Source: Terrabacter aerolatus
GTDB lineage: Bacteria > Actinomycetota > Actinomycetes > Actinomycetales > Dermatophilaceae
DNA: 64,000 bases
Direction: 5' to 3'
Assembly (NCBI RefSeq): GCF_007991735.1
Contig: NZ_BJYX01000003.1
Coordinates: forward strand, 1-64,000
Part shown: one piece after another, positions 1,495 to 59,918 of the stretch
How the letters are laid out: each line of letters starts with the position of its first letter
How positions within the stretch are numbered: the stretch's first letter is position 1
Made by a program: the position numbers and the translations under genes
Notes under the pieces: model-generated
What the model saw: only the letters and a program-made list of their open reading frames with translations
Databases searched by the model: none
Told to the model about the DNA's origin: nothing

Positions 1495-1603
1495 GGGTAT
1501 CGGTGTCCTCTCGTCCCGGCGGGCTCCCTGCCCACCCGGACACAGCCTGCCGTATGCCGCCACGCCGGTGCCAACGAGTACCACCCGTCCCGCGTGCCGA
1601 GCC

Positions 1604-2218
1604 CTAACGACCGGGCCGTCGCCGGCCCGGCCGGTAGGGGGACACGGTGGGTTCCCCGTCGAGCCAGAAGCGCCAGGGGTAGGACGTCCCGTCGCCACCG
1701 GGACCGCTGACCCCTACACGTGGCCCCGTCCGAACGCCGTGGCGGCCCTCCCGCGCGAGAGGGCCGCCGACGACGACCGGGGACCCGGGAGCGCACAGGT
1801 CGACGCCGGAGAGTCCACCCGTCACGCCCAGGGCGGCCGTCAGCCGTCCCGGCCCGCGGCACCAGTCACGCTCGCTCACGCCGGCCCGGCGCTCCGCCGC
1901 CACGTCGTGCCCCGCGACCACCTCCCCGGCCCGGAGGAGGACCACCTCCGGGACGTCCGGCTCCCCCGTGACCACGCAGAGCATCCAATGGTGTCCGTAG
2001 GTGAAGTAGACGAACGCGTGGCCGGCCGGACCGAAGACCGGGGCGTTGTGGCGGGTGGGCCGGCTCAGCACCCGGGACGCGGGGTCGACGCGTCCGGCAT
2101 ACGCCTCGGTCTCGGTGATGCGCACCGTCACCCCACCGTGCCGCACCCGGCACCCCAGCAGGTCGGCGCCCACCTCGAGCACCGGGCGGTCGAAGAACGA
2201 GCGGGGCAGGCTCTTCAC
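1604..2218 (-). CDS. 3-methyladenine DNA glycosylase paralogue (diverged Mpg/AAG)
   Basis: Member of the Mpg/AAG family, which removes alkylated or deaminated purines to start base-excision repair. It has 204 residues, a normal length. The general-base glutamate is present in TETEAY (E38), as are FVYFTYG and the GPRVGVSGPG C-terminal block. Compared with its neighbour and with human AAG, two pocket positions differ: the family histidine is R49 and the family asparagine is C81, and the conserved TPR-R segment is degraded. Its GTG start overlaps the upstream paralogue's TGA by 4 bases (GTGA), implying translational coupling. It is probably a duplicate with changed or reduced substrate range; activity is uncertain. 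Confidence 0.88.
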   Translation of the reverse strand: MKSLPRSFFDRPVLEVGADLLGCRVRHGGVTVRITETEAYAGRVDPASRVLSRPTRHNAPVFGPAGHAFVYFTYGHHWMLCVVTGEPDVPEVVLLRAGEVVAGHDVAAERRAGVSERDWCRGPGRLTAALGVTGGLSGVDLCAPGSPVVVGGPLAREGRHGVRTGPRVGVSGPGGDGTSYPWRFWLDGEPTVSPYRPGRRRPGR

Positions 2219-2862
2219 GCGCGGCGCCGGCGCACGACGCCCGGACGGTACGTCGACACGCTCGGGTCTGCGTCGACCCAGAAGCGCCACGGGAAGGCCG
2301 ACCCGTCACCTCCCGGCCCGCTCACGCCGACGCGCGGCCCGACCCGAACGCGGTCCGGCGCGACCGGCTCGCCCTCCGAGACGACGAGGTCGATGGGCTC
2401 GCCGATGGGCGGACGGCAGAAGTCGCGCCCGGTGTGCTCCTTCGTCATGGCGAGCGCCTGGCCGAGCCGTCCCGGCCCGCGCGCCCAGTCCCGCTCAGGC
2501 ACCGGTCCCCGTCGCGCACGGACGAGGTCATGACCGGCCACGACCTCACCGGCCCGCACGAGCACGGCGGACGCCGACCCCTCCTCGCCGACGACGAGGT
2601 TGACGCACCAGTGGTGCCCGTAGGTGAAGTAGACGTACGTGAAGCCGGGCGGCCCGAACATCGGACGCGTGCGCGGCGTCTCCCCGCGGAAGGCGTGCGA
2701 CCCCGGGTCGACCTCCCCGGCATACGCCTCCAGCTCGGTCAGCCGCAGCACGACGCCACCGTAGGAGAGGTGCCGACCCAGCAGCGCGGGCGCGACCTCG
2801 ACGGACGGTCGGGCGAAGAACTCGCGGGGCAGGCGGCGGTCGGCAGCACTCACCGACGACAC
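2215..2862 (-). CDS. mpg: 3-methyladenine DNA glycosylase (Mpg/AAG family)
   Basis: Excises alkylated purines from DNA as the first step of base-excision repair. The 215-residue product has the catalytic glutamate in TELEAYAGE (E45; most homologues read ETE, here ELE), the pocket histidine in GSHAFRG (H56), the TPRTR segment and the asparagine in CVNLVV (N88), so all key AAG residues are present. The start is uncertain: GTG at 2862 or at 2853, neither with a strong ribosome binding site. It follows argH by about 13 bases and overlaps a second family member, suggesting one transcript from the arg genes. Confidence 0.93.
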   Translation of the reverse strand: MSSVSAADRRLPREFFARPSVEVAPALLGRHLSYGGVVLRLTELEAYAGEVDPGSHAFRGETPRTRPMFGPPGFTYVYFTYGHHWCVNLVVGEEGSASAVLVRAGEVVAGHDLVRARRGPVPERDWARGPGRLGQALAMTKEHTGRDFCRPPIGEPIDLVVSEGEPVAPDRVRVGPRVGVSGPGGDGSAFPWRFWVDADPSVSTYRPGVVRRRRA

Positions 2863-2875: not shown

Positions 2876-6121
<3,246 letters not shown>

Positions 6122-6125: not shown

Positions 6126-7131
6126 GGGGTCTCCTCAGGCGTCGGGGCGGAAGCGGCAGGGGCGGCGGGGCCCGGGGCCGGCTGGGACCCGGTGATGTCG
6201 GGCAGGACCATGGTGCCGATCCCCTCGTCCGTGAAGATCTCGAGCAGGATCGAGTGCGGCTTGCGCCCGTCGACGACGTGGGTCTGGGGCACCCCGCCCT
6301 CGACGGCTCGGATGCAGGCCTCGAGCTTGGGCACCATGCCGTGGTCGACCCGCGTGAGGAGCTCGCGTGCCGCGCTGACCGTGATCGTCGAGAGCAGCGA
6401 GCTGCGGTCGGGCCAGCCGGCGTAGATGCCCTCGACGTCGGTGAGCACGACGAGCTTCTCGGCCCCCAGGGCGACGGCGATCGCGGCCGCAGCGGTGTCG
6501 GCGTTGACGTTGAGCACCTGTCCCTCGACGTCGAGGTCGGGGGCGACGGTGGACACGACCGGCACCCGGCCGGCGTCGAGGATGTCGAGGATCGCCGAGG
6601 GATTGACGCTCTCGACGTCGCCCACGAGCCCGAGGTCGACCTCCTCGCCGTCGACGACGGTGCCGCGCCGACGTGCCCCGAGCAGGGCGGCGTCCTCGCC
6701 GGACAGGCCCACGGCGATCGGGCCGTGCTGGTTGAGCAGACCGACGAGCTCACGCCCGACCTGACCGGTGAGCACCATGCGCACGACGTCCATGACCTCG
6801 GGTGTCGTGACCCGCAGCCCGCCCTTGAACTCGCTGACGAGGCCCACGCGCTCGAGCATGGCCTTGATCTGCGGACCGCCGCCGTGGACGACGACGGGGC
6901 GCAGGCCGGCATACCTGAGGAAGGCGATGTCCTCGGCGAAGGCGGCCTTGAGCTCGTCGTCGACCATGGCGTTGCCGCCGTACTTCACGACGACGAGGGC
7001 ACCGCGGAACCGCTCGAGCCACGGGAGCGCCTCGACGAGGGTCGCGGCCTTGCTCGCCGCCACCCGGATGGCTGCGGCGTCGATGAGGCCCCGGAGGTCG
7101 GCGGGCTGGTCTGGACGGGTGCTCGCGCTGG

Positions 7132-7135: not shown

Positions 7136-9371
<2,236 letters not shown>

Positions 9372-9380: not shown

Positions 9381-11939
9381 TCAGCGTTGGATGGCCCCCG
9401 TCGCGGACGTCGCGGCCGCCACCGCAGCGTCGCGGAACCCGTTGACCTCGTCGGTCGTCAGGGTCCGGTCCGGAGCCCGGAAGGTGAGCCGGTAGGCGAG
9501 GGACCGGTGCCCGGCCTCGATGCGCTCGCCCTCGTAGACGTCGAAGAGGACGACCGACTCGAGCGACTCCCCCGCGCCCGAGCGCAGCGCGGCCTCGACG
9601 TCGGCCGCCGCGACGTCGGACGCGACGAGCAGGGCGATGTCGGTCATCGCGGGCGGGAAGCTCGAGAACGAACGGGCCTGAACGGGGTCTGCGCTCGCCG
9701 CGACGAGCACGTCGACGTCGAACTCCGCCGCCACCGTGCGCGCCGGCAGGTCGAGGGCGGCGACCACCTTCGGGTGCAGCTCGCCCGCGTGACCCACGAG
9801 CGTGCCGTCGGCCAGCGTGATCCGGGCGCAGCGGCCCGGGTGCCACGGGGCGTGGCCCGCGTCGTTGCCGACGACGACGGGCACGGCCAGGGCGGCAGCC
9901 GCGGCCTGCACGGCGGCGACCATGTCGCTCCAGTCGGCGGCGCGGCCGGGGCCCCACCATCCCGCCTGCTCGGCCTGGCCCGTCGCGAGGATGCCCGCGC
10001 GACGCGGCTGGTCGGGCACGGCGGCATACAGCCGGGTGAGCGTCTCGGCGTCGGGCCGGGAGGCGACCCCGGGGATCGGCGCCGTGCCGAGCGATGCGCC
10101 GGGACGGAAGACGAGGCCCAGCTCGTAGATCGCGACGTCCTTGTGCCCACGCGCGACGTTGCGGCGCAGCGTGTCGACGAGGCTCGCGAGGATCGACGTG
10201 CGCAGCAGCGGCCGCTCCTCGGACAGGGGGTTGGCGAGCCGCACCGCGTGGCGGCGGTCGTCGTCGGCCGGCAGCATGAGGTGGTCGGCGAGCTCCTCGG
10301 AGACGAACGGGTAGCTGAGCACCTCGGTCAGCCCGGCGCCGGCGAGCGCGTCCGCGACGACCCGGCGGGCCTTCTGCCCGTGGGTCAGGCCGCGACCGTC
10401 GCTCGGCGTCGGGGTGATCGACGGGATGTTGTTGTAGCCGTCGATCCGGGCGACCTCCTCGGCGTAGTCGGGAGCGTCGACGAGGTCGGGGCGCCACGAC
10501 GGGGGCGTCACGAGGACGTGGGTCTCGTCGGCGCCCTGACCGGACTCCTCGACCCGGCACCCGAGGTCGCGCAGGATCCCGACGACGCGTTCGCGCGGGT
10601 AGTCGACGCCGACGATGCGCGCGGGCTCGGTGACGTCGAGCAGGTATGCCGTGCGGCCCGTCGTGCGGTCGACGTCGGTGACGTCGGGGTCGACGGTGCC
10701 CCCGCCGTGCTCGACGAGAAGGTCGACGGCCAGCTGCGCGGCAGCCGCTGTCACCTCGGGGTCCACCCCGCGCTCGAAGCGCTTGGAGGCCTCGGTGATG
10801 AGCCGGTGCCGGCGCGAGGAGCGGGCCACGGTCGTCGGGTCGAAGTGGGCCGCCTCGATGAGGACGTCGGTCGTCGTGTCGGTCACCTCCGAGGACGCGC
10901 CGCCCATGACGCCGGCGATGGCGAGCGGCTGCTCCCCACCGTCGGTGATGAGCAGGTCGTCGGGGTGCAGGGTGCGCTCGACGTCGTCGAGCGTCTTCAG
11001 CGTCTCGCCCCCACGGGCCCGTCGCACGACGATCGAGCCGGAGAGCCGGTCGACGTCGAAGGCGTGCAGCGGCTGGCCCAGCGCGAGCATGACGTAGTTG
11101 GTCACGTCGACGGCGAGCGAGATCGGACGCATGCCCATCTGCGTCAGGCGCTTGCTCATCCACGCCGGCGACGGCCGCGTCGGGTCGATGCCCCGCACGA
11201 TGCGGGCGACGTAGCGGTCGCAGCCGTCGTTGCCCTCGATCGGTGACTCGTCCTTGAGCTCGACGGCGTAGCCGCCGGTCGTGGCCTCCGGCACCGCGAT
11301 CTCGGCGGGGTCCCGGTAGCCGCCCTCAGGGCTGCCCTGGGCGTGCCAGTACTCGCGGGCCAGGCCGCGCACCGAGAAGCAGTAGCCACGGTCGGGCGTC
11401 ACGTTGGTCTCGACGGTCTCCTCGCCGAGCCCGAGCAGCGCGATGGCGTCGTCGCCCGGCTCGACGCTCGCGGCCTTCTCCGCGCCGAGCAGGCGGCTCA
11501 GCACGATGATGCCCTCGTGGTCGTGGCCCAGGCCGATCTCGTCCTCGGCGCAGATCATCCCGTTGGACACGTGCCCGTAGGTCTTGCGCGCGGCGATCGC
11601 GAAGCCCCCGGGCAGCACGGCGCCGGGCAGGACGCAGACGACGAGGTCGCCGACCTCGAAGTTGTGGGCGCCGCAGACGATCTCCTGGTGCTTGCCCTCG
11701 GTCAGCATCTGGCCGTTCCGGCCGACGTCGACGGTGCACCAGCGGATCGTCTTGCCGTTCTTCTGCGGTTCGAGCTCGAACGAGAGGACCCGGCCGACGA
11801 CCAGCGGACCCGTGATGTCGCCACCGTGGAGGTCCTCCTCCTCCAGGCCGACGCGCACGAGGCTGGCGGCCACGTCGGCACCCCGGGCCCCGGGCGCGAG
11901 GTCGGTGTACTCGGCGAGCCAGCTGAGCGGCATACGCAT
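9381..11939 (-). CDS. pheT: Phenylalanyl-tRNA synthetase beta subunit
   Basis: Beta chain of the alpha2-beta2 enzyme that charges tRNA-Phe. The 852-residue chain has an N-terminal OB-fold tRNA-binding domain (about 40-150; GPLVVGRVLS), the B3/B4 region, a B5 domain, a class II core-like domain and a C-terminal FDX-ACB anticodon domain ending near the stop. The ATG at 11939 (MRMPLSW) lies one base after the pheS stop. A second in-frame ATG two codons later is less likely. It ends 45 bases before argC. Confidence 0.97.
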   Translation of the reverse strand: MRMPLSWLAEYTDLAPGARGADVAASLVRVGLEEEDLHGGDITGPLVVGRVLSFELEPQKNGKTIRWCTVDVGRNGQMLTEGKHQEIVCGAHNFEVGDLVVCVLPGAVLPGGFAIAARKTYGHVSNGMICAEDEIGLGHDHEGIIVLSRLLGAEKAASVEPGDDAIALLGLGEETVETNVTPDRGYCFSVRGLAREYWHAQGSPEGGYRDPAEIAVPEATTGGYAVELKDESPIEGNDGCDRYVARIVRGIDPTRPSPAWMSKRLTQMGMRPISLAVDVTNYVMLALGQPLHAFDVDRLSGSIVVRRARGGETLKTLDDVERTLHPDDLLITDGGEQPLAIAGVMGGASSEVTDTTTDVLIEAAHFDPTTVARSSRRHRLITEASKRFERGVDPEVTAAAAQLAVDLLVEHGGGTVDPDVTDVDRTTGRTAYLLDVTEPARIVGVDYPRERVVGILRDLGCRVEESGQGADETHVLVTPPSWRPDLVDAPDYAEEVARIDGYNNIPSITPTPSDGRGLTHGQKARRVVADALAGAGLTEVLSYPFVSEELADHLMLPADDDRRHAVRLANPLSEERPLLRTSILASLVDTLRRNVARGHKDVAIYELGLVFRPGASLGTAPIPGVASRPDAETLTRLYAAVPDQPRRAGILATGQAEQAGWWGPGRAADWSDMVAAVQAAAAALAVPVVVGNDAGHAPWHPGRCARITLADGTLVGHAGELHPKVVAALDLPARTVAAEFDVDVLVAASADPVQARSFSSFPPAMTDIALLVASDVAAADVEAALRSGAGESLESVVLFDVYEGERIEAGHRSLAYRLTFRAPDRTLTTDEVNGFRDAAVAAATSATGAIQR

Positions 11940-13157: not shown

Positions 13158-14279
13158 TCAGCTGCCGACGACCGCCGGCAGCCCCGCCGGCAGCGCCACG
13201 ACGAAGCGCGCCCCGCCGCTGTCGCCGTCGCTGACGTGGACCGAGCCGCCGTGGGCCTCGACGAGCCCCCGCACGACGTAGAGGCCGAGCCCGGTGCTCG
13301 CGTTGGAGGGGCCGTGCCAGAAGCGTCCGAAGATCTTCTCGCGGTCGGACGGGGGTATGCCGTCCCCCTCGTCCTCGACCTCGACGACGACCGACTCGGG
13401 AGCGTCACCGAGCGCCCCCGCGCGGTCGAGCGTCACCGTGACCTTGCCGGCTCCGTGGAGCAGGCCGTTCTCGATGAGGTTGAAGAAGATCTGCTCCAGG
13501 CGGTCGGTGTCGGCCCACATCTGCGGGAGGCCGTGGTCACGGGCGCGCCCACCGAGGCGGAGCTCGACGGTCCCGGTCGAGCGGCCCAGCTCGTAGCGGA
13601 CGACGTGGGTCGTGAGCAGGGCGTGCAGGTCGACGGGTCCCAGCCGGAGGTTGAGGCTGTCGGAGTCGAGGCGCGAGATGTCGAGCAGCTCGGTGATGAG
13701 CCGCGTCAGGCGGGTGGCGTCGGACTCGATCGTCTCGATCATGAGGCGCTTCTGCTCGTCGGAGAAGCGGTCCCACCGCCGCAGCAGGCTGCTCGTGAAG
13801 CCCGTGACCGACGTCAGTGGTGCCCTCAGCTCGTGGGCCACCGTCGAGAGCACCGAGGCCTGGTCACGCTCGGCCCGCTGCCGGTCCTCGGCGTCACGCA
13901 GGCCGAGCACGACCCGCTCGACGGTGTGGTCGCTGCCGGAGCGGAGGTAGCGGGCGGTGACGAGGACGTCCTGGCCCCTGGGGGCGACGAGCAGCTTCTC
14001 GCGGTGGCCCGGGCGGCTCGGCAGGCCGTTCCACGGGTCGGTGTGTGCCCACCAGTCGCGGCCGTACTTGTCGGTCAGGGGCAGACCGTCCGCGAGGGTG
14101 CGACCCACGAGGGCCGAGGCGTCGCAGTCGAGGATGCGCAGGGCCTCGGCGTTGGCGAAGTGGATGCGCCGGTCGCTCCCGACGACGACGAGGCCGTCGG
14201 GGAGCAGCTCGGCCACCTCGGCGACAGGATCCGACGCCGATCCCGGCGGCAGCGCACCGGTCCCGTCGACGGAGGTCAT
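13158..14279 (-). CDS. PAS-domain sensor histidine kinase (orphan, soluble)
   Basis: A 373-residue two-component histidine kinase without a visible membrane segment. Domains in order: a PAS domain (about 20-130; LPDGLVVVGSDRRIHFAN), a HisKA dimerisation domain with the phospho-acceptor H149 in STVAHELRAPLTS, and a HATPase domain with the N box (NLIENGLLHG), G1 (DEGDGI) and G2 (GLGLYVV). All catalytic motifs look intact. No response regulator is adjacent; neighbours are translation genes (rRNA methylase, pheST). The ligand of the PAS domain is unknown. The ATG lies 6 bases after a TATCCT hexamer, which suggests a leaderless transcript of its own. Confidence 0.93.
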   Translation of the reverse strand: MTSVDGTGALPPGSASDPVAEVAELLPDGLVVVGSDRRIHFANAEALRILDCDASALVGRTLADGLPLTDKYGRDWWAHTDPWNGLPSRPGHREKLLVAPRGQDVLVTARYLRSGSDHTVERVVLGLRDAEDRQRAERDQASVLSTVAHELRAPLTSVTGFTSSLLRRWDRFSDEQKRLMIETIESDATRLTRLITELLDISRLDSDSLNLRLGPVDLHALLTTHVVRYELGRSTGTVELRLGGRARDHGLPQMWADTDRLEQIFFNLIENGLLHGAGKVTVTLDRAGALGDAPESVVVEVEDEGDGIPPSDREKIFGRFWHGPSNASTGLGLYVVRGLVEAHGGSVHVSDGDSGGARFVVALPAGLPAVVGS

Positions 14280-18292: not shown

Positions 18293-18436
18293 GGCACGAA
18301 GCCTGCCACCCGCCACCGACGGCGCGCACGCGGGTTCTCGCCCGGTGCCACCCGGCCCGCCCACCGGCGGTGCGCTCCCACGCGGCATACGCCAGAGGTC
18401 TTGTGACCGCCGTGGGACAGGAGAAAGGTGGGAGCC

Positions 18437-20503
18437 ATGGCAAAGACGCCCGGCAGATCAGACCTTCCTGCGGCCCCCAACCCCGCCTCGCCGCAGGACA
18501 TCCGCAACGTCGTGCTGGTCGGACCCGGCGGGGCCGGCAAGACCGCACTCTTCGAGGCGCTCGTCGCGGCGCGGGTCCCGGGGCAGCGCACCGGCACCGG
18601 CGAGCACGTGCGCACGACGACCCTGACCGCTGCCTCCTTCACGTCGGGGACGGTCACCCTCAACCTGCTCGACACGCCGGGCTACCCCGACTTCGTCGGT
18701 GACCTGCGGGCCGGGCTGCGTGCCGCGGACGCCGCGGTCTTCGTCGTGTCCGGCGCCGACGACATCGACCGACCGGTGTCGCTGCTGTGGCGCGAGTGCG
18801 CGGCCGTCGGCATGCCGCGGGCCGTCGTGGTGACGCACCTGGACCAGCCGCGCGCCGACTTCGCGGCGACCGTGCAGATGTGCCGCCGCACCTTCGGTGA
18901 CGCCCGCGCCACGCACTGGCCCGTGCTCGACGCCGGGTCGGTCACCGGCGTCGTGGGGCTGCTGACCGGTGAGACGTCCGAGGAGCACGAGGAGGCCCGC
19001 GCCGCCCTCATCGAGTCCGTCATCGAGGAGTCCGAGGACGCCGGCCTGCTCGACCGCTACCTCGAGGGCGAGAGCATCGACACCGAGGCGCTGCTCGCCG
19101 ACCTCCGCACGGCGATCGCCCAGGGCACCTTCTTCCCCATCCTGCCCGTCTCCCCGCTCACCGGCGCCGGCGTGGAGGAGCTGCTCGGCATGGTCGAGCG
19201 AGCCTTCCCCGACCCGACGGTCCACCCGCTGCCCACCGTCACCTCACCTGCCGGTGGCGCGATCGGCGGGGTCGCGTGCGACCCGTCGCAGCCGCTCGTC
19301 GCCGAGGTGGTGCGCACGACCACCGACCCCTACGTCGGGCGCCTGTCGCTCGTGCGCGTCTTCTCCGGCACGCTGCGCGTGGACGAGCCGGTGCACGTGT
19401 CGGGACATCTCGGCGACTTCGTCGGGCACGAGGTCGCCGGCCACCCGGCCCACGACGACGACGAGCGCGTCGGCCCGCTCGCGTCACCGTTCGTCGACGC
19501 GCACCGGCCCCGCGGCACCGCCATCGCCGGCGACCTGGCGCTCGTGTCCAAGCTGACCCGCGCCGAGACGTCGGACACCCTCTCCTCGGTGGAGCGGCCC
19601 GCCGTGGTCGCGCCGTGGCTGCTGCCCGAGCCGCAGCTGCCGGTGGCGATCCGGGCCGCGACGAAGTCCGACGACGACAAGCTCGGCGGAGCGTTGCAGC
19701 GGCTCGTCGCCGAGGACGTGACGATGCGGATGGAGCACTCGACCGAGAACGACCAGGTCGTCCTCTGGACGATGGGGCAGGCCCACGTCGACGACCTCAT
19801 CGGTCAGCTCGCGGACCGCTACGGCGTCACGGTGACGGCCGAGCCCTACCGCACCTCGCTGCGCGAGACGTTCGTGCGCCGGTGCTCGGTGCAGGGCCGC
19901 CACGTCAAGCAGTCCGGTGGGCACGGGCAGTATGCCGTCTGCTCCATCGACATCGAGCCGCTCCCCCGCGGGGCCGGCTTCGAGTTCGTCGACAAGGTCG
20001 TCGGCGGGGCGGTGCCCCGCCAGTTCATCCCGTCGGTCGAGAAGGGCGCCCGGCTCCAGCTCGAGAAGGGCCTGCTCACCGGGCACCCGGTCGTCGACGT
20101 CCGGGTCACGCTGACGGACGGCAAGGCGCATTCGGTCGACTCGTCCGACGTCGCCTTCCAGACCGCCGCGGCCCTCGCGCTCAAGGAGGCGGCCAACGCC
20201 TCGACCATGGCGCTGCTCGAGCCCATCGACCGGGTCGACATCACCATCGCCGACGAGTACCTCGGCGCCGTCATGTCCGACCTCCGCGGTCGGCGCGGGC
20301 AGGTGCTGGGCACCGAGCCGGCCGACGGCATGGGACCGGAGGGTGGCTGGACGGTCGTGCACGCCGAGGTGCCCTCGGCCGAGCTGTCGCGCTACCCCAT
20401 CGACCTGCGCTCGGTGTCGCACGGGACGGGGTCGTTCGTGCGCGAGCCGCTGCGCCACGACCTCCTGCCCGCCGACAAGGCCAAGGACCTCCTCGGCAGC
20501 TGA
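18437..20503 (+). CDS. fusA2: Elongation factor G-like protein (EF-G2 family)
   Basis: Translation-factor GTPase paralogue with the domain order of EF-G: G domain (about 20-290), domain II, III, IV and V; 688 residues. G1 is GPGGAGKT (29-36), G3 DTPG (79-82). G4 reads THLD (133-136) instead of the canonical NKxD, so guanine recognition may be altered. EF-G2 proteins are common in actinobacteria; their role is unsettled and is not ordinary translocation. The ATG at 18437 follows GGTGGGAG; an in-frame GTG at 18428 overlaps that site. One of few plus-strand genes; ends at a strong hairpin. Confidence 0.92.
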   Translation: MAKTPGRSDLPAAPNPASPQDIRNVVLVGPGGAGKTALFEALVAARVPGQRTGTGEHVRTTTLTAASFTSGTVTLNLLDTPGYPDFVGDLRAGLRAADAAVFVVSGADDIDRPVSLLWRECAAVGMPRAVVVTHLDQPRADFAATVQMCRRTFGDARATHWPVLDAGSVTGVVGLLTGETSEEHEEARAALIESVIEESEDAGLLDRYLEGESIDTEALLADLRTAIAQGTFFPILPVSPLTGAGVEELLGMVERAFPDPTVHPLPTVTSPAGGAIGGVACDPSQPLVAEVVRTTTDPYVGRLSLVRVFSGTLRVDEPVHVSGHLGDFVGHEVAGHPAHDDDERVGPLASPFVDAHRPRGTAIAGDLALVSKLTRAETSDTLSSVERPAVVAPWLLPEPQLPVAIRAATKSDDDKLGGALQRLVAEDVTMRMEHSTENDQVVLWTMGQAHVDDLIGQLADRYGVTVTAEPYRTSLRETFVRRCSVQGRHVKQSGGHGQYAVCSIDIEPLPRGAGFEFVDKVVGGAVPRQFIPSVEKGARLQLEKGLLTGHPVVDVRVTLTDGKAHSVDSSDVAFQTAAALALKEAANASTMALLEPIDRVDITIADEYLGAVMSDLRGRRGQVLGTEPADGMGPEGGWTVVHAEVPSAELSRYPIDLRSVSHGTGSFVREPLRHDLLPADKAKDLLGS

Positions 20504-20588: not shown

Positions 20589-21590
20589 TCAGAGCCGGAC
20601 GAGCATCTTGCCGACGTTCTCGCCGCGCAGGACGCCGAGGAAGGCGTCCACGGCGTGGTCGATGCCGTCGCTGAACGTCTCGCGCGAGGTCAGGGTCCCG
20701 TCGGCGATCCAGCCGGCGGCACGCTGGGCGTACTCGCCGGCGAGGTCCCAGTGGTCGCCCACGAGGAAGCCGGTGATCGTGCCGCGCGTCTGGATGAGGC
20801 GGGCCAGGTTGCGCGGGCCCGGGGCGGCCTCGGTGTTGTTGTACACCGAGATCGCACCGCAGATCGCGATGCGGCCGCCGAGACGCAGCGAACCGACGGC
20901 GGCCTCGAGGTGGTCACCCCCCACGTTGTCGAAGTAGACGTCGATGCCGTCGGGCGCGGCCTCGCGCAGCAGGTCGGAGACGCGGCCGTCCTTGTAGTTG
21001 AAGGCTGCGTCGAAGCCGAGGTCGTTCAGGAGGTGGTCGACCTTCTCCTGCGAGCCGGCGCTGCCGATGACCCGGCTCGCACCGAGGGCCTTGGCGACCT
21101 GGCCGACGACACTGCCCACGGCGCCGGCGGCGCCGGACACGAAGACGACGTCGCCCTCCTTGAGCCCCGCGACGCGGGTCAGCCCGGCGTATGCCGTCAG
21201 GCCGGTCATGCCGAGCACGCCGAGGTAGGCGGAGGCGGGGGCCACCGAGGTGTCGACGACGCGCACGCCGGAGCCGTCGACGACGGCCTCCTCGCGCCAG
21301 CCGAGACCGTGCAGCACGTGGTCGCCGACGGCGATGCCCTCGGCCCTGGACTCGGTCACGACGCCGACCGCGCCACCGTGCATCGCCTCACCGAGCGCGT
21401 ACGGCTCGGCGTAGGACTTGGCCTCGCTCATGCGGCCACGCATGTAGGGGTCGACCGACATGACCTCGTTGCGCACGCGGACCTGGCCGTCGGCGAGGTC
21501 GACGGGTGCGCTCTCGACGAGGGCGAAGTCGTCAGGGGTGGGCCAGCCGACGGGACGGCTCTTGAGCTGGACCTCGCGGGGGTTGATCAT
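20589..21590 (-). CDS. NADP-dependent oxidoreductase (CurA/PTGR-like MDR family)
   Basis: Zinc-free medium-chain reductase of the CurA/leukotriene-B4-dehydrogenase type, which reduces alpha,beta-unsaturated carbonyls with NADPH. The 333 residues show SVDPYMRGRM near the N terminus, the Rossmann loop GAAGAVGSVVGQVAK, FDNVGGDHLEA and the family end ENVGKMLVRL. The substrate is unknown. The ATG at 21590 has AAGGAG. It lies 72 bases after ohr on the same strand, so both may belong to one electrophile/peroxide response. Confidence 0.92.
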   Translation of the reverse strand: MINPREVQLKSRPVGWPTPDDFALVESAPVDLADGQVRVRNEVMSVDPYMRGRMSEAKSYAEPYALGEAMHGGAVGVVTESRAEGIAVGDHVLHGLGWREEAVVDGSGVRVVDTSVAPASAYLGVLGMTGLTAYAGLTRVAGLKEGDVVFVSGAAGAVGSVVGQVAKALGASRVIGSAGSQEKVDHLLNDLGFDAAFNYKDGRVSDLLREAAPDGIDVYFDNVGGDHLEAAVGSLRLGGRIAICGAISVYNNTEAAPGPRNLARLIQTRGTITGFLVGDHWDLAGEYAQRAAGWIADGTLTSRETFSDGIDHAVDAFLGVLRGENVGKMLVRL

Positions 21591-21662: not shown

Positions 21663-22091
21663 TCAGTCGACGAGGATCTCGACCGGGATGTTGCCGCGCG
21701 TGGCGTTGGAGTAGGGGCACACCTGGTGCGCGGTGTCGACGAGCTCGCGACCGAGCTGCGGGTCGAGACCCTCGGGCAGCTCGACGTGGAGGACGACGCC
21801 GAGACCGAAGCCGGTGCTCGAGGACCCGGAGAGGCTGACGTCGGCGGTGACCGCGACGTCGAAGTCCTCGACCCGACGCTTGCGCGCGACGACGCCGAGA
21901 GCGCTCGCGAAGCACGCGGCATACCCCGCGGCGAAGAGCTGCTCGGGGTTGGTGCCCTCACCGGAGCCGCCGAGCTCACGCGGGGCGGCGAGCGTGACGT
22001 CAAGGCGGCCGTCGGAGGTGACGGCGCGCCCCTCGCGTCCGGAGGCGGTGGCCGAGGCGACGTACTGGGCGGTCTGCGTGGTGGTGCTCAT
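21663..22091 (-). CDS. ohr: Organic hydroperoxide resistance protein
   Basis: Thiol peroxidase that reduces organic hydroperoxides, using dihydrolipoyl groups in known members. The 142 residues contain both redox cysteines: C60 in GYAACFAS and C125 in HQVCPYSNATRGN. The ATG at 22091 follows AGGAG. Divergent from ohrR, with two operator-like palindromes between them. Confidence 0.97.
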   Translation of the reverse strand: MSTTTQTAQYVASATASGREGRAVTSDGRLDVTLAAPRELGGSGEGTNPEQLFAAGYAACFASALGVVARKRRVEDFDVAVTADVSLSGSSSTGFGLGVVLHVELPEGLDPQLGRELVDTAHQVCPYSNATRGNIPVEILVD

Positions 22092-36945: not shown

Positions 36946-37932
36946 TCAGTTCCCGGGGTGAGCCGGCCAGGTCCCCGGCCAGGCGGCGAGACGGCGCCGG
37001 GTGACGAAGCGACGCGGCGTCCCGTCGACCGGGTCGTCGAAGGCGAGGACGGCCGCCAGGAGCTGCAGCGGCGCCGTGAAGTCGTCGAGCGGGACGTCCC
37101 GCTCCACCGGGTAGAGGGGGTCGTCGGCGATGGGGATCCCGAGGCCCGCGAGATGGCACCGCAGCTGGTGGGTGCGCCCCGTCCTCGGCGTCAGGCGGTA
37201 GAGCCCGACGCTCTCCCCCGACCCACCGCGCCGGGTCACCGTGTCGATGAGCTCCACCAGGGTCTCGGCGTTGGGCTCGGCCCCGCCGACCTCATGGGCC
37301 TGGTGGGTGCCGTGCTCCTTGACGAGGTGGGTGCGACGGACGAGCGGCAGGTCGAGGTCGTCGCGGACCGGCGCGACCGCGAGGTACTCCTTGTGCACGA
37401 GGCCGTCGGCGAAGACGCCCTGGTAGGCGCCTCGCCACCGTTGCTCGGTGGTGAACATCAGCACGCCGGCCGTCGGGCGGTCGAGGCGGTGGGCCGGAGT
37501 GAGGCGCTCCTCTCCGGTGAGCACCCGCGTGCGAGCCAGGGCGCTCTGCACCACGTGGCGCCCGCGCGGCATCGTCGCCATGTCGTGGGGCTTGTCCACG
37601 ACGACGATGCGGTCGTCGTGGTGCAGCACGACCGGCGTCTCGGGGTGGGCGACCTCGTCCGGGAGGTCACGGTGCGCCCAGACCGCCGACTGGGGCACGA
37701 ACGGCGCGTCGGCCGGGACGGGCGCCCCCGAGGCGTCCACGAACTCGCCGCCCCTGAGCATGCGGTCGACCTCGTCGGGCGTCAGGCCCGGAGAGAGCCG
37801 CTCCACGAGGTGGTCGCGCAGGGACACCCACGGGCCGGCCTGCGGCATACGGAAGCGTTGGGCGTCGACACCGTGCCGAGGGGGCAGCGGCGACGGCGGG
37901 ATGGGTCCGCGGGCCACCTCAGCCACCCCCAC
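36946..37932 (-). CDS. RluA-family pseudouridine synthase
   Basis: Probable rRNA pseudouridine synthase, 328 residues, with the catalytic aspartate in PAHRLDRPTAG (D151), the VVVDKPHDMATMPRG strand and RTGRTHQLRCHLAG. The N-terminal part (about 40-90) is shorter than a normal S4 domain. HRLDRPTAG instead of HRLDxxTSG marks the subgroup found in actinobacteria; the target base is unknown. The GTG start at 37932 overlaps the upstream gene by 14 bases; in-frame GTGs at 37926 and 37917 are alternatives. Confidence 0.9.
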   Translation of the reverse strand: MGVAEVARGPIPPSPLPPRHGVDAQRFRMPQAGPWVSLRDHLVERLSPGLTPDEVDRMLRGGEFVDASGAPVPADAPFVPQSAVWAHRDLPDEVAHPETPVVLHHDDRIVVVDKPHDMATMPRGRHVVQSALARTRVLTGEERLTPAHRLDRPTAGVLMFTTEQRWRGAYQGVFADGLVHKEYLAVAPVRDDLDLPLVRRTHLVKEHGTHQAHEVGGAEPNAETLVELIDTVTRRGGSGESVGLYRLTPRTGRTHQLRCHLAGLGIPIADDPLYPVERDVPLDDFTAPLQLLAAVLAFDDPVDGTPRRFVTRRRLAAWPGTWPAHPGN

Positions 37933-39034: not shown

Positions 39035-42627
<3,593 letters not shown>

Positions 42628-42726: not shown

Positions 42727-42824
42727 ACGCCAGCATCACCCCGTCCGGAGCAGGCCCTGGGCGCTCGCAGCCCCCGGACGGCATACGCCATCAGCCTTCA
42801 CGGTGAGGTGGAGGGTTAGAGTCC

Positions 42825-47918: not shown

Positions 47919-48659
47919 TTACAGAAGTGACGGGCGGGAACCGAGGATTGCGGTGCCGACACGCAGGTGTGTCGCACCGTGGCGCAGCCCTGCCTCGAGG
48001 TCGCCGCTCATTCCCGCTGAGATCCAGTCGGCCTGCGGGTGCCGATCGCGTATGCCGTCCGCGACCTCCCGGAGCCGGGTGAAGGCCGCGTCGGGGTCGG
48101 CTCCGAGGGGCGCGACGGCCATGACACCGCGCAGGTCGAGACGGTCCTGTGCCGCAACGGCATCGGCGAGGCCCTCGACGTCGTGCGGCAGCACGCCACC
48201 ACGGGAGGTGTCCCCGTCGAGGCTGACCTGGAGCAGGACCCTGAGTCGCCGGTCCGCGGCGTGCGCCCCCTTGGCGAGGGCCGTCACGAGCTTGGCCCGG
48301 TCGACCGACTCGACGACGTCGGCGTACGCGGCGACGTGCGCGGCCTTGTTGCTCTGCAGCTGACCGATGAAGTGCAGCGTCAGGTCAGGCTCCCCCGCGT
48401 CCGAGAGCGCCTGCCGGACCTCGCGGAACTTCTCGCCCGCCTCCTGGTCGCGGTTCTCGCCGAAGTGCCGCTCACCCAGGTGGTGGAGCAGCAGCACGTC
48501 CGAGGCCGGGAAGTACTTGGTGACCACGACGAGCGTGACATCGGCGGGGTCGCGGCCGGCCTCCGCGCAGCCCCTGGCGATGCGCTCGTGGACGGCGGCG
48601 AGGTTGTCGCGCAGCTGCCCGGCACGCGCCTCGGCCCCTGCGACGGGGGCGCTGGTCAC
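47919..48659 (-). CDS. yggS: YggS-family PLP homeostasis protein
   Basis: Non-catalytic PLP-binding TIM-barrel protein that buffers pyridoxal phosphate. The 246 residues show the PLP lysine in [10 protein letters not shown] (K48), [20 protein letters not shown] and the end [23 protein letters not shown]-type signature. The GTG at 48659 overlaps pgeF (GTGA). Confidence 0.96.
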
Positions 48660-49402
48660 GAGGCGACCTCCCGGAGGGCCACGACGCCGGCGAAGCGCCC
48701 GGTCCGGCCGTCACGCCGGTAGGAGTACAGGTCGGCACTCTCACGCGAGCAGCCCGGGATCCACCGGACCGCGACATCGGCCGACGCGAGCTGCTCGACG
48801 ACACCGGCCGCCACGTCGATGGCGGGCGTCCCGGTCCACGAGCGCGCTGCCGACGACGGGGCGACCGAGGCCGCAGCCGCGGACATCTCCGGCGGCACCT
48901 CGTAGCAGCGGCCGCACACCGACGGGCCGACCGTCGCCGAGACGGAGGTCGCGCCCAGGTCGCGCATCGCCCCGACGGCGCGGCCGACGATGCCGGCGAG
49001 CATGCCAGGCCTGCCTGCGTGGACGGCGCCCACGACACCGGCGCGCGCGTCGTGGAGGAGCACGGGCACGCAGTCGGCGACGAGGACGCCGAGGGCGAGC
49101 CCGCGGGTGCGCGTGACGATGCCGTCCACGGCGGGGGGCTGCGCACCCCAGGGCCCGTCGACCTCGACGACGTCGGCGCCGTGGACCTGGTTCATCAGCA
49201 CGAGGTGCCCCCGGGGGACGTCGAGCTCGTCGGCCAGTGCGGCTCGGTTGCCCTCGACGTCTGCCGGGTCGTCACCCACGTGACCGCCGAGGTTGAGCCC
49301 GGCATACGGCCCGCGCCCCCGTCCCGACGAACGGCCCGTGAAGCCGACGTCGACCGGGTAGCTCTCGCCGTCGCTCGCGATGGTGGTGCGCCAGTAGAAC
49401 AC
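48656..49402 (-). CDS. pgeF: PgeF/YfiH-type peptidoglycan-editing purine phosphorylase
   Basis: Multicopper-oxidase-like DUF152 protein. Family members phosphorolyse or deaminate purine nucleosides and remove misplaced serine from cell-wall precursors. The metal-binding residues appear in NQVHGADV, LVADCVPVLL and VHAGRPG. The start is uncertain: GTG at 49402 (chosen; it lies 7 bases after a TAGGTT -10 hexamer and gives the family-like start FYWR), GTG at 49408, or TTG at 49411. Length 248 residues. It has its own promoter behind the ftsZ terminator. Confidence 0.93.
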   Translation of the reverse strand: MFYWRTTIASDGESYPVDVGFTGRSSGRGRGPYAGLNLGGHVGDDPADVEGNRAALADELDVPRGHLVLMNQVHGADVVEVDGPWGAQPPAVDGIVTRTRGLALGVLVADCVPVLLHDARAGVVGAVHAGRPGMLAGIVGRAVGAMRDLGATSVSATVGPSVCGRCYEVPPEMSAAAASVAPSSAARSWTGTPAIDVAAGVVEQLASADVAVRWIPGCSRESADLYSYRRDGRTGRFAGVVALREVAS

Positions 49403-53476: not shown

Positions 53477-54585
53477 CGGTGGTCCCTGCCTTCGGCTGCC
53501 CGGTCGACGAGGTCTGCGAGCGTCTCGTCGGCAGTGGGCTCGCCGAGCGTCCGGGCCGCCGCCGCCATGCGGGCCACCCGCTCCGGGTCGGTCGCGAGCG
53601 GGACGAGCACGGTGTCGATCCACTCCGGCGTGAAGGCCGCGTCGTCGACGAGCAGGCCACCTCCGGCAGCCACGACGTCGGTGGCGTTGAGGACCTGCTC
53701 GCCGTTGCCGACGGGCAGCGGGACGTAGACGGCGGGCAGGCCGACAGCAGTCAGCTCGCACACCGTGTTGGCGCCCGAGCGCGCCACCACGAGGTCGGCG
53801 ACGGCATACGCCAGCTCCATGCGGTCGGCGTAGGGGACGACGACGTAGGGCGCCCCACCCCCGAGCGCCTCCGGGGCGAACTCCTTGCCCAGACCGGTGA
53901 CGTGGAGCACCTGCACCCCCGACTCGCGCAGCTGCGACACCCGGGCACGGAAGGCGTCGTTGAGGCGCTGAGCGCCCAGGGAGCCGCCGGTGACGAGGAC
54001 CGTGGGCCACTGCGCCTCGAGGCCGAAGTGCGCGAGCGCCTGGGCCCGCACCGCAGCGCGGTCGAGCGTGCTGACCTCACGGCGCAGCGGCATACCGACT
54101 CGTTGGGCGTGCGGCAGCGACGTGCTCGAGAAGGTCGTCGCCACGGCACTGGCGAAGCGCGCTCCGAGGCGGTTGGCCAGGCCGGGACGGGCGTTCTGCT
54201 CGTGGATGACGATCGGCACGTGCCGACGTCGCGCCGCGAGGTAGGCGGGAGTGCTGACGTAGCCACCGAACCCGACGACGACCTCGGCCCCGGTGTCGTC
54301 GATGGCCGCTCCGGCGGCGTCGACCGCCGCCTTGAGGCGACCGGGCAGCCGCAGGAGGTCGACGCTCGGGCGTCGGGGCAGCGGCACCTTCGGGACGAAC
54401 CTCAGGTCGTAGCCGCGGGCCGGCACGAGGCGTGCCTCGAGCCCCTCCTGCGTGCCGAGGGCCGTCACCCGCAGGTCGGGGTGACGGCGGCGCAGGGCGT
54501 CGGCGAGGGCCAGGAGCGGCGACACGTGGCCAGCGCTCCCTCCCCCGGCGAGCAGGACGGAGGTGGGCGAGGACAGCGGGATCAC
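53473..54585 (-). CDS. murG: UDP-GlcNAc transferase MurG
   Basis: Makes lipid II from lipid I on the inner membrane face. The 370 residues include the GGGSAGHVSP loop (14-23), GFGGYVSTP, IHEQNARPGLANR, the GGSLGAQ loop and ARSGANTVCEL of the GT28 fold. The GTG at 54585 overlaps the ftsW stop (GTGA). Confidence 0.97.
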   Translation of the reverse strand: MIPLSSPTSVLLAGGGSAGHVSPLLALADALRRRHPDLRVTALGTQEGLEARLVPARGYDLRFVPKVPLPRRPSVDLLRLPGRLKAAVDAAGAAIDDTGAEVVVGFGGYVSTPAYLAARRRHVPIVIHEQNARPGLANRLGARFASAVATTFSSTSLPHAQRVGMPLRREVSTLDRAAVRAQALAHFGLEAQWPTVLVTGGSLGAQRLNDAFRARVSQLRESGVQVLHVTGLGKEFAPEALGGGAPYVVVPYADRMELAYAVADLVVARSGANTVCELTAVGLPAVYVPLPVGNGEQVLNATDVVAAGGGLLVDDAAFTPEWIDTVLVPLATDPERVARMAAAARTLGEPTADETLADLVDRAAEGRDHR

Positions 54586-55922: not shown

Positions 55923-57409
55923 TCCAGCCCCCCGTGTGCCTCCAGGTGCCGCCGGACCGCCTCCTCGAAGGCGTCGCCGCGGGCCCCGTAGTTCGTGAAC
56001 ATGTCCATCGAGGCGGCAGCGGGTGCGAGCAGCACGACGTCGCCCGGCTGGGCGAGGTGCGCGGCCTCCCTGACGACTCGGTCCATGACTCCAGTGTCCG
56101 TCTCGGACAGGTCCACGACCGGGACATCGGGCGCGTGTCGGGAAAGGGCCTGGGCGATCTGGTCGCGGTCGGCGCCGATGAGGACGACGCCGCGCAGCCG
56201 GGACGCCATCTCCTCGACGAGGCTGTCGACGTCGGCCCCCTTGAGCAGTCCGCCGGCGACCCACACGACCGAGTCGAAGGAGCGGATCGCCGCGGCCGCG
56301 GCGTGCGGGTTGGTGGCCTTGGAGTCGTTGACGAACCGGACGCCCTTCACGGTGGCGATCTCGGCGATCCGGTGACGGTCCGGCCGGAAGGCGCGCAGCC
56401 CGTCCCGGACCGCGATGGGACCGACGCCGTAGGCACGGGCCAGCGCGGCGGCGGCGAGGGCGTTGGCGACGTAGTGCGGCGCGATCGAGGGGGCGTCGCC
56501 CTGGAGGTCGGCGATGGTGCACAGCTCCGCTGCGGAACGCTGTCGCTGCTCGACGAAGGCGCGGTCGGCGAGGACGTCCTCGACGACGCCGACCATCGAG
56601 GGCGCCGGGATGCCCGTGGTGAAGCCGATGGCGCGGCAGCCCTCGACGACGTTGGCCTCCATGACGAGCTGCTCGGTCTGGATGTCCGCGACGTTGTAGA
56701 TGCAGGCCAGGTGGGTGTTCTCGTAGATCTTCCCCTTGGCCCGGAGGTACTCGGCGTAGCTGCCGTGCCAGTCGATGTGGTCGGGAGCGACGTTGAGCAC
56801 CGCCGAGGCGACCGCCGAGACGGAGCGCTGCCAGTGCAGCTGGAAGCTGGAGAGCTCGACGGCGAGCACGTCGTAGGGCTCGGGGTGGAGGACTGCCTCG
56901 AGGAGCGGGGTGCCGACGTTGCCGGCCGACGTCGCACGCAGCCCTGCGTGGCGCAGGATCGAGGCGAGCATGTTGACCGTGGTCGTCTTGCCGTTGGTGC
57001 CCGTGACGGTGAGCCACGGAGCGGCGCCCTCCTGCGCCCGCATGCGCCACGCGAGCTCGACCTCTCCCCACACGGGTATGCCGGCCGTGGCGGCCGCGAG
57101 CATGAGCGGGTCGTGGGGTGGGACCCCGGGCGAGGTCACGACGAGCTCGGTGCCGGCCGGGGGCTCGGTCATGTGCTCGGCGCCGAGCCGGACGTCGACG
57201 TCGAGGATCTCGAGGATCGTGGCGCGCTCACGGATCGCCTCGGTCTCGTCGCGGGAGACGGCGACGACGTGCGCGCCGCGGTCGGCGAGGGCGTCGGCGG
57301 CCGCGAAGCCGGAGACGCCGAGCCCGACGACGAGGACGCGCAGGCCGGACCAGTCGGCGTCCCGGTGGGTCAGTCCCTCACGGGGCTCGTAGAGCGGGTC
57401 GTAGCTCAC
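55919..57409 (-). CDS. murD: UDP-MurNAc-L-Ala-D-Glu ligase
   Basis: Adds D-glutamate to UDP-MurNAc-L-Ala. The 496 residues include [13 protein letters not shown], the P loop [34 protein letters not shown] and [12 protein letters not shown]. The GTG at 57409 overlaps the mraY stop (GTGA). Confidence 0.97.
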
Positions 57410-58491
57410 TGGGACCCCACCACCCATTCTGCGTAGAAGACGCCGAGCCCGAAGGCGACGAAGAGTCCGGCGATGATCCAGAACCGGACCACGACCGTCA
57501 CCTCGTTCCACCCGACCATCTCGAAGTGGTGGTGCAGTGGCGCCATCCTCAGCACCCGTTTGCCGGTGGTCTTGAACGAGGCCACCTGGGCGACGACGGA
57601 GAGCGTCTCGAGGACGAACATGCCGCCGAGGATGACGAGCAGCATCTCGGTGTGGGTCGTGATGGCGAGGCCGGCGAGGGCACCACCGAGGGCGAGGGAG
57701 CCGGTGTCGCCCATGAAGATCTTCGCGGGCGTCGCGTTCCACCAGAGGAACCCGAAGCAGGCTCCCATGCCCGCGGCCGCGACGAGCGCGAGGTCGTGGG
57801 AGTCGCGCACCTCGTAGCACTTGATGCCGGGGTTGGTCTGGCAGTTCTGGTTGTAGGTCCAGATGCTGATGAGCACGTAGGCGCCGAAGACCATCGTCGA
57901 GACACCCGTGGCGAGCCCGTCGAGGCCGTCGGTGAGGTTCACGCCGTTGGACGCGCCGGCGATCATGACGTTGGCGAAGATGACGAAGAGGATGACGCCC
58001 ACGACGGTGCTGCCGCCGAGGGCGAGGCTGAAGTTCGTGTCGCGCACGAACGAGACGAGCAGCGAGGCAGGCGTGCGGTACTGCTCGTTGGGGAACTGCA
58101 GCGCGAGCCCGGCGAACGTGATGCCGACGAGCGCCTGCCCCAGGAGCTTCTGCTTCGACCGCAGCCCGAGGCTGCGCTGCTTGCTGATCTTGATGAAGTC
58201 GTCGAGGAAGCCCACGAAGCCCAGGCCCGCCGCCAGGAAGAGGACGAGCAGCCCGCTCGCTGTGGGCGGGTTGAGCGTCAGCAGGTGCGCGAGGAAGTAG
58301 GCGCCGACCATCGCGGCGAGGATGACGGCCCCGCCCATCGTGGGCGTGCCGCGCTTCGTGTGGTGCGAGGTCGGACCGTCGTCACGGATGAACTGGCCGT
58401 AGCCCCGCTTGACGAGGTACTTGATGAACAGCGGCGTGCCGAACAACGAGATGAGCAGCGAGATCGACGCTGCGAGGAGGACACCCTTCAT
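57406..58491 (-). CDS. mraY: Phospho-MurNAc-pentapeptide translocase
   Basis: Integral membrane enzyme making lipid I. The 361 residues show about ten membrane helices, [28 protein letters not shown] with the catalytic aspartates, and [11 protein letters not shown]. The ATG at 58491 overlaps the murF stop (ATGA). Confidence 0.98.
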
Positions 58492-59918
58492 CCGCGGGCC
58501 TCCTCTCCGGAGGTCGCCGGTGCGGGTGGCACCGTGATGTCGCCGCCCTCGGCGGCGAGCCGGTCACCGAGCCAGCGCAGCCCGCTGTCGCGGCTGGACT
58601 TGAGCAGGACGACGTCGCCGGGCCGCAGCCGCGACGCGAGCAGGTCGTGGGCCGCATCGGTGTCCGGGACCCACTCCGCGCCCGGGAACGCCTCGGCGAG
58701 GGGCCTGGCCCCGTCGCCGACGGCGACGACGTGGTCGAAGGCCAGCGACGCGGCATACGACCCCACGCCTGCGTGCTCCGCGTCGCTGTCGGGACCGAGC
58801 TCGAGCATGCCCCCGAGGACCGCCCAGCGCTCCCCCGTCACGTGCATCGCGGCGACGGCGTCGAGGGCAGCACGCATGGAGTCGGGATTGGCGTTGTACG
58901 CGTCGTTGACGACCACGACGCCGTCGGGGCGGTCGGTGATCTCCATGCGCCAGCGGCTCGCCGGCTCAGCCGCGGAGAGGCCCGCGACGACCTGGTCGAG
59001 CGACAGGCCGAGCTCGAGAGCCGCGGCAGCGACCGCGAGCGAGTTGCCGACGTGGTGGGCGCCGCTCTGGCGCAAGGAGACTCGTGCCGTGCCCTGCGGG
59101 CAGACGAGGGTGTATGCCGCCCTGCCGCGCTCGTCGAGGGTGACGTCCTCCGCGCGGACGTCCGCATCGGGGGCGAGTCCGACGAGCTGGACGCGGGAGG
59201 CCAGGCCGGCGGCCATGCCCGCGACGACGGCGTCGTCGGCGTTGAGGATCGACAGGCCCTCGGCCGGCACGGCACGAGGCAGCTCGGACTTGGCGCGGGC
59301 GATGTTCTCGCGGGACCCGAACTCCCCGATGTGGGCCGTGCCCACGTTGAGCACGATGGCGACCTGGGGAGGCGCGATGCGGGTGAGGTAGTCGATGTGA
59401 CCGATGCCGCGGGCACCCATCTCGGCGACGAGGAAGCGGGTCGTCGGGGTGACCCGGCACACGGTGAGCGGGACGCCGATCTCGCCGTTGAGCGAGTTGA
59501 CGGGTGCGACCGTCTCGGCGACCGACGACAGCACGGACGCGAGGAGGTCCTTGACGCTCGTCTTGCCGGACGAGCCGGTGACCCCGACGATGCGCAGCTC
59601 GGGCGCACGGTCGACGACGGCCCGGGCGACCCGGCCGAACGCGGTCTGCACGTCGTCGACGACGACGCAGGGCACGCCCTCGACGGGACGCGAGGTCAGG
59701 GCGGCCACGGCGCCGGCCGCCACCGCCTGGCCGACGAAGTCGTGGCCGTCGGCGGTCTCGCCGACCCGCGCCACGTAGAGGCTGCCGGGCCCGCAGTCCC
59801 GGGAGTCGGTGGTGACGGTGCCGTCGATGACGACGGACGCGCAGAGCTCCGGCGTCTCGACGCCGTGCACCTGCCCACCCGTGACGTCTCGGATCTCACC
59901 CAGGGTCAGGCCGATCAC
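58488..59918 (-). CDS. murF: UDP-MurNAc-tripeptide D-Ala-D-Ala ligase
   Basis: Adds D-Ala-D-Ala to the tripeptide precursor. The 476 residues include [14 protein letters not shown], the P loop [23 protein letters not shown] and [11 protein letters not shown]. The GTG at 59918 overlaps the murE stop (GTGA). Confidence 0.97.

Follow-up and report, generated by a model that had tools for sequence, protein, structure and literature searches.

What maintains a short word that recurs through the first 64 kb of a Terrabacter aerolatus contig, on both strands and inside as well as between genes? The stretch in question, called the window below, comprises bases 1-64000 of contig C3 of the genome under study (G000). 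The heptamer GGCATAC/GTATGCC occurs in it 33 times when both strands are read, and 32 copies extend to the octamer CGGCATAC, the one at 16775 being the exception; the original prediction had listed all of them, with a single position off by one (28029, correctly 28028). Dinucleotide-preserving shuffles of the window held a mean of 0.56 octamers and a maximum of 4 (n=100), meaning that the predicted excess was real while the expected count of about two was too high. The copies divide 19/13 between the strands, and by place 26 lie inside genes, 2 over a gene end and 4 between genes (genes were called with a simple codon-score script, not a published caller), in agreement with the earlier remark that the word is also intergenic. 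On the evidence given below, and by analogy, we think that CGGCATAC is probably a self-recognition tag for natural transformation that works like the DNA uptake sequence (DUS) of Neisseriaceae and the uptake signal sequence (USS) of Pasteurellaceae.

When the whole of G000 was counted (4.42 Mb in 62 contigs), CGGCATAC was found 2,163 times, 1,091 forward and 1,072 reverse, or about once per 2 kb. The same word read backwards, used as a control, gave 195 copies (105 + 90), so that the genome-wide count is far from expectation. In a 464-kb sample of G000, made of the window and a further 400 kb, 255 copies were counted where second-order and third-order Markov models predict 6.9 and 11.8, respectively. 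A codon-pair or compositional artefact might be suspected from the reading frames, as 153 of the 180 coding copies in this sample stand in Tyr-Ala or Ala-Tyr frames; yet synonymous shuffling lowered the coding count to a mean of 16.0 with a maximum of 22 when done within genes (60 shuffles) and to 8.7 when done sample-wide (60 shuffles), and the strongest excess was found in noncoding DNA (69 copies, compare with 0.9 expected). Moreover, sister genera of similar GC content are without the word (G014, G016). These results refute the artefact, whose chance of being right is negligible: the excess is not due to codon bias, and the proposal of selection at the level of the DNA, as opposed to the protein, is supported.

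The excess is confined to the exact word. The 24 one-mismatch neighbours of CGGCATAC, when pooled, were not in excess, with 276 coding copies for 307 expected and 37 noncoding copies for 36.3 expected. At the 69 noncoding sites the flanking bases are also biased: upstream, A is found at -1 in 64% (T in none), C at -5 in 72% and C at -4 in 71%, and downstream, G at +9 and C at +11 in 68% each. The complete signal may therefore be longer than eight bases.

We then considered the layout of the word. Its two orientations number 134/121 in the 464-kb sample, 94/86 on contig C1 of G000, and 101,874 forward to 101,543 reverse over the 110 genomes defined below as carriers; the bias that was noted earlier as weak from the window is absent from the sample and from the carriers. 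In G034, a genome of the same family that uses the variant word CGGCATCC and whose 4.02-Mb contig was sampled at 23 places, the split is 236/213, with 208 copies on the G-rich strand and 241 on the other (p 0.13, non-significant), and the two contig halves hold 134/119 and 102/94, which is no strong skew (origin position unchecked). FtsK orienting polarizing sequences (KOPS) are disfavoured by this symmetry, the strong origin-to-terminus skew that marks them being absent from G034 (origin position unchecked) and from C1 of G000. The same holds for Chi (GCTGGTGG), one of the candidate roles of the original prediction. At a Chi-like recombination hotspot the reader would be a helicase-nuclease other than RecBCD, such as AdnAB, and the octamer length and the sharp recognition would suit this role; RecC of RecBCD has no match in G000 (other helicase-nucleases were not searched), yet AdnAB, which actinobacteria have, could serve. 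Against this role, the replication-strand polarity of Chi is seen neither with CGGCATAC nor with CGGCATCC, RecC (PF04257) was found in one of the nine genomes of the genus of G000 and its presence does not track the word, and an intergenic excess and even spacing are not known to be traits of Chi. We thus regard a Chi-like signal as quite unlikely, and among the roles first suggested the DNA-uptake tag fits best.

The copies are spaced more evenly than chance allows. On 320 kb of C1 the variance-to-mean ratio was 0.49 per 5 kb, as low as in none of 2,000 random placements, and CGGCATAC was the most evenly spaced of the 252 words having 120-260 copies there. For CGGCATCC in G034 the ratio was 0.54 per 2 kb (0 of 2,000 placements as low) and a non-significant 0.56 per 20 kb (7.1%). 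In the window alone the trend is also towards evenness without being significant (0.46 per 5 kb; 8.8% of placements as low), and the gaps described earlier between 32.8 and 48 kb did not hold up, since copies at 37.8, 40.2 and 42.8 kb lie in this region, which is not special. The word is denser between the genes of G000 (1.35/kb) than inside them (0.44/kb), and among gaps it is most frequent in convergent ones (2.58/kb), followed by co-directional (1.38/kb) and divergent ones (0.83/kb; convergent versus divergent, p 0.001). The longest CGGCATAC-free stretches of C1 are C1:128155-138646 and C1:92012-101304; the latter contains small genes that, from their first residues, presumably belong to mobile or toxin-antitoxin DNA. 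In the 49 kb of the Tetrasphaera phage TJE1, 2 copies were counted where 0.94 are expected. This is in line with foreign DNA being free of the word, although it comes from one phage of lower GC content, and the words of its own host were uncounted.

Is the word shared by relatives? We take the host to be a Terrabacter-like member of the NCBI family Intrasporangiaceae, relatives of which are assigned to Dermatophilaceae in PMC9123174. We called a genome a carrier when its count was 300 or more and no less than twice the control, thresholds of our own choice, with 11 of 186 genomes lying between 120 and 300 copies. By this measure 110 of the 186 family genomes are carriers (101 with at least five times the control), and 31 of the 53 genera include one. 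Of 394 genomes drawn across the class, 386 came from outside the family, and not one of these had both 300 copies and five times the control, as read from the count table; one of these outsiders, G351, had 170 copies for 27 of the control. The word is thus restricted to the family of its host. Judged from 10-22 kb around comEC, carriers include Terrabacter, Terracoccus, Knoellia, Phycicoccus elongatus, Nostocoides, Intrasporangium oryzae and Ornithinimicrobium cavernae, and fewer than 3 copies were found around comEC in Janibacter (3 of 3 loci), Dermacoccus abyssi, Phycicoccus jejuensis and Intrasporangium flavum. Inside carrier genera, three species (G529, G506, G445) have apparently lost the word.

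The sites themselves are conserved among carriers. We aligned the ComEC neighbourhoods of 16 carrier and 9 non-carrier loci out of 31 (L131-L161; L135, L139, L143, L154, L158 and L161 were left out), the Terrabacter/Terracoccus pair being omitted from the carrier sum; the ComEC of G000 is 78-82% identical to that of the Terrabacter and Terracoccus contigs. Between carriers 381 of 949 words were kept, compared with 17.5% of 8-mers of the same composition, whereas from carrier to non-carrier none of 477 was kept, compared with 15.8%, at a similar overall identity (0.744 and 0.739, respectively). As the aligned pairs overlap in ancestry and are not independent, these figures are descriptive. The absence of any kept word fits with a gain of words by carriers or their erasure from non-carriers. 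At 78% identity, K. subterranea kept 7 of 7 words of Knoellia remsis, and 6 of 8 were kept in the reverse direction. Three Terrabacter-group loci (91-94% identity) had 10 of 16 word sites common to all, several of the others falling in alignment gaps.

Some genera replace the word by a variant. Dialects were judged from synonymous shuffles for coding copies and from noncoding counts, because second-order Markov excess misleads for octamers made of G and C only; figures are given as observed/expected. The samples, of 20-60 kb for most genomes, are small. The test left out stretches of up to 3,000 bases, genomes with up to 13,000 bases (G021 and G033 were thus unjudged) and L012, the repeat-rich first stretch of G031 (C1:1-20000), in which some 27 repeats of one family include CAGTTCGAC. 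Twenty-seven other genera of the family were drawn; the genome standing for each had 300 or more copies of CGGCATAC in 13 of them and fewer in 14. For five of these 14 a variant word was supported by coding and noncoding counts alike: CGGCATCC in G034 (coding 299/65.8, noncoding 145/5.5) and in G024 (62/17.4 and 24/2.1), CCGCATAC in G028 (37/3.4 and 7/0.4), and CGNCGTAC-type words in G031 and G032, where CGGCGTAC gave 50/15.3 and 8/1.2, and 41/15.4 and 8/1.3, respectively. In G009 CGGCATCC had coding support only (42/12.6; noncoding 4/2.3), and in seven of the 14 (G010, G014, G016, G017, G018, G022 and G027) no variant was accepted. Dialects also occur among carriers: G020 prefers CGGCATTC (coding 19/1.6, noncoding 8/0.2), and G011, G012 and G035 use CGTCATAC and CGCCATAC alongside CGGCATAC (for CGTCATAC, coding 10/1.1 and noncoding 4/0.1 in G011, 8/1.2 and 3/0.1 in G012). 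More than 2,000 copies of CGGCATCC were found in 7 of the 186 genomes. In one genus, g180, two genomes are dominated by CGGCATCC (4,480 copies to 361 of CGGCATAC in G462; 3,619 to 288 in G463) and two are mixed (2,195 to 1,217 in G464; 2,099 to 1,189 in G465), which looks like a dialect change caught inside one genus.

These dialects and losses bear on two other explanations. The first is a word like HIP1 (highly iterated palindrome 1), which a methyltransferase and mismatch repair would jointly make and keep, or which methylation would require, and whose dialects would follow the specificity of the enzyme. Cyanobacterial HIP words are described in PMC4390886 as iterated octamers, with a different word in exceptional genomes and a link to methyltransferases, and the missing halo of mismatched forms would fit near-words being edited into the exact one. 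HIP1 is palindromic, however, whereas CGGCATAC is not its own reverse complement, and from a repair bias we would expect neither the even spacing nor the preference for convergent gaps; we consider this explanation unlikely. The second is a binding site for a chromosome-organising protein, required every 1-2 kb round the chromosome. Even spacing, strand symmetry and genome-wide spread would all agree with it, but the losses within genera (G529, G506, G445) and the change of dialect in one genus are ill-suited to an essential nucleoid role, and we know of no nucleoid protein with such dialects. Such a site is, in our opinion, rather improbable.

Other families of actinobacteria may have variant words too. 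In 40 kb of G055, from family f19, GGCATCCG (coding 32/3.2, noncoding 3/0.5) and AGGCATCC (18/1.5 and 2/0.2) were raised, and GGCATCCG is possibly a related dialect. The heptamer GCCGTAC was raised in 6 of 12 loci of another group (L178, L180, L182, L183, L187 and L194, which we take to be Streptosporangiaceae), with 14-27 coding copies for 3.4-7.3 expected and 3-10 noncoding copies for 0.5-0.8, and it was weaker or absent in the other 6; it may be another iterated word.

Coming back to the uptake tag, we looked at the machinery that it would need. In G000 an open comEA adjoins an open comEC, and there are three matches to TadE and three to the TadE-like TIGR03816, one of them above the cut-off. 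ComEC was matched in 180 of the 186 family genomes and TadE in 56 of 58 genomes, and a helix-hairpin-helix (ComEA) stretch lies upstream of comEC in 24 of 25 loci inspected among L131-L161, in carriers and non-carriers alike, L157 being the exception. Since Micrococcus luteus depends on tad genes and comEC for its transformation (PMC4322843), the family can be said, by analogy, to have parts for uptake. A type IVa pilus was rejected as the common reader: PilM was matched in 13 of 58 genomes, of which just two (G028, G033) belong to the family, and not in G000. The ComEC match is split at about positions 27-37 of the PF03772 model in G541, G550, G572 and G493 (Table 1), the short parts being weak matches (20-26 bits), and the breaks of G492 and G578 are at the same position. 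It is as if a prophage-sized element integrated at one site in the competence gene comEC.

We propose the following scheme. In a cell with Tad/Flp-type pilus genes and ComEA/ComEC, the octamer would be bound, while the DNA is double-stranded, by a protein of the surface or the pilus, so that fragments with the word are preferentially taken up; once imported, they would recombine with the chromosome and thereby give rise to new copies, mend damaged ones and spread them. Uptake would thus be the process in which the word is read, a pilin-like protein its reader, and transformation what maintains it. About one copy per importable fragment would be favoured, which would account for the even spacing and the strand symmetry. 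Drift in the specificity of the reader would draw the genomic word along and yield dialects, and loss of specificity would let the words decay. Preferential uptake, the defining property, rests here on analogy, and we therefore describe CGGCATAC as acting like an uptake sequence without classing it as one. For the broader claim of a Gram-positive, actinobacterial system of self-DNA uptake with genus-level dialects and a receptor linked to the Tad/Flp pilus or ComEA, independent of DUS and USS, we see the chances as evenly balanced.

Several results weigh against an uptake tag. One-mismatch forms are not over-represented, unlike those of the Haemophilus influenzae and Neisseria gonorrhoeae uptake sequences (PMC1939737). 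ComEC, TadE and TIGR03816 occur in carriers and word-free relatives alike and none tracks the word, so that they do not discriminate between the two groups, and neither does ComEA; no reader protein was found among the families compared. The six genomes without a ComEC match (G450, G476, G537, G544, G579 and G582) are all carriers, with assemblies 58-95% complete. A partial ComEC match is seen in just one of the three species without the word in carrier genera, G529, and also in G526, which kept its word; breakage of ComEC as the cause of word loss was thus dropped, as no clear link was seen. The 10.5-kb gap at C1:128155-138646 holds an operon that, from its first residues, we take to be flagellar and not foreign. 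Close pairs also give little: 7 of the 10 pairs of CGGCATAC within 60 bases in G000 are in the diverging, hairpin-capable orientation (p 0.004), but their number is barely above chance (7.4 expected), not all of the other genomes counted have this orientation, and in G034 the 20 pairs (8 diverging, 7 converging, 5 direct) are fewer than the 23 expected and of mixed orientation, so that the evidence for hairpin pairs is thin. To our knowledge, labels for self-DNA uptake are known only from a few Gram-negative bacteria. In the open-licence literature we found nothing combining Intrasporangiaceae with natural transformation, no uptake sequence from Gram-positive bacteria turned up among the papers listed, and the titles listed for the word itself were unrelated; PMC7811141 and PMC1939737 describe such sequences from Pasteurellaceae and Neisseriaceae.

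If the uptake tag is real, self-tagged transformation arose at least once more, in thick-walled bacteria with Tad-type pilus genes, and one could predict which environmental actinobacteria, including relatives of the phosphate-removing Tetrasphaera of wastewater, are transformable and with which DNA. With its 53 genera, several dialects and repeated losses, the family offers many natural replicates for identifying the reader and for studying the reason why there are uptake sequences.

The copies of the window are listed in Table 1. The gene at 58488-59918(-) is presumably murF, by its position. At 1604-2853 two DNA-3-methyladenine glycosylase-like genes are neighbours, an apparent tandem duplication.

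Table 1. Copies of CGGCATAC in the window, and split ComEC matches in four other genomes.
Feature	Coordinates	Strand	Remark
CGGCATAC between genes	1552..1559	-	
CGGCATAC in 3-methyladenine glycosylase-like gene 1604-2218(-)	2095..2102	+	
CGGCATAC in 3-methyladenine glycosylase-like gene 2215-2853(-)	2718..2725	+	
CGGCATAC in argR-like gene	4749..4756	+	
CGGCATAC in argD-like gene	5111..5118	-	
CGGCATAC in argB-like gene	6907..6914	+	
CGGCATAC in argC-like gene	8984..8991	+	
CGGCATAC in pheT-like gene	10022..10029	+	
CGGCATAC in pheT-like gene	10644..10651	-	
CGGCATAC spanning start of pheT-like gene	11928..11935	+	
CGGCATAC in histidine-kinase-like gene	13355..13362	-	
CGGCATAC between divergent genes	18383..18390	+	
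CGGCATAC in EF-G2-like gene	19930..19937	-	
CGGCATAC in NADPH-dependent reductase-like gene	21189..21196	-	
CGGCATAC in Ohr-like peroxiredoxin gene	21917..21924	+	
CGGCATAC between gene 24892-25635 and hisH-like gene	25711..25718	-	
CGGCATAC in hisH-like gene	26041..26048	+	
CGGCATAC in hisC-like gene	28028..28035	-	
CGGCATAC in hisD-like gene	28611..28618	+	
CGGCATAC in hisD-like gene	29073..29080	+	
CGGCATAC in oligopeptidase B-like gene	31439..31446	-	
CGGCATAC in oligopeptidase B-like gene	32800..32807	+	
CGGCATAC spanning start of gene 36946-37848(-)	37843..37850	+	
CGGCATAC in dnaE-like gene	40231..40238	-	
CGGCATAC between genes	42779..42786	+	
CGGCATAC in yggS-like gene	48050..48057	-	
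CGGCATAC in pgeF-like gene	49300..49307	+	
CGGCATAC in murG-like gene	53802..53809	+	
CGGCATAC in murG-like gene	54088..54095	+	
CGGCATAC in murD-like gene	57076..57083	-	
CGGCATAC in gene 58488-59918(-)	58751..58758	+	
CGGCATAC in gene 58488-59918(-)	59112..59119	-	
Split ComEC	G541 C46:68443-109701		parts 40.4 kb apart
Split ComEC	G550 C1:1161102-1202035		parts 40.1 kb apart
Split ComEC	G572 C1:850559-895259		parts 43.9 kb apart
Split ComEC	G493 C1:2175993-2204556		parts 27.7 kb apart

How does CGGCATAC compare with the known systems? USS is strand-symmetric, and both orientations of DUS and USS are equally frequent. CGGCATAC shares with them a non-palindromic word in excess, parity of orientation, dialects and a host with competence genes, the latter not being specific to carriers; the one-mismatch excess is the trait of theirs that it lacks. 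With Chi it has in common the octamer length class, and differs in being without strand polarity and in a host without a RecC match. Like HIP1 of cyanobacteria, it is an iterated octamer, common but not universal in its group and replaced by other words in exceptional genomes, whereas HIP1 is a palindrome with methylated internal sites (PMC4390886). The USS of Pasteurellaceae has another sequence, belongs to another phylum and comes with an AT-rich tract that was not seen in the flanks of CGGCATAC, but its spacing of about 1 kb (PMC7811141) is close to that found here, from about 0.9 kb in G015 to 2 kb in G000. The DUS of Neisseriaceae, for its part, is longer than CGGCATAC, which is known here from sequence alone, has no one-mismatch excess and belongs to a Gram-positive actinobacterium without a PilM match; both are nevertheless short non-palindromic words with dialects that favour permissive intergenic DNA, and DUS is known to form inverted pairs at terminators (Frye et al. 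2013, PMC3630211). Altogether, because of its strand symmetry, its even spacing of about one copy per 1-2 kb, its sharp word, its dialects, its preference for gene ends and its losses, the candidate uptake tag resembles DUS and USS with their dialects more than it does Chi or KOPS.

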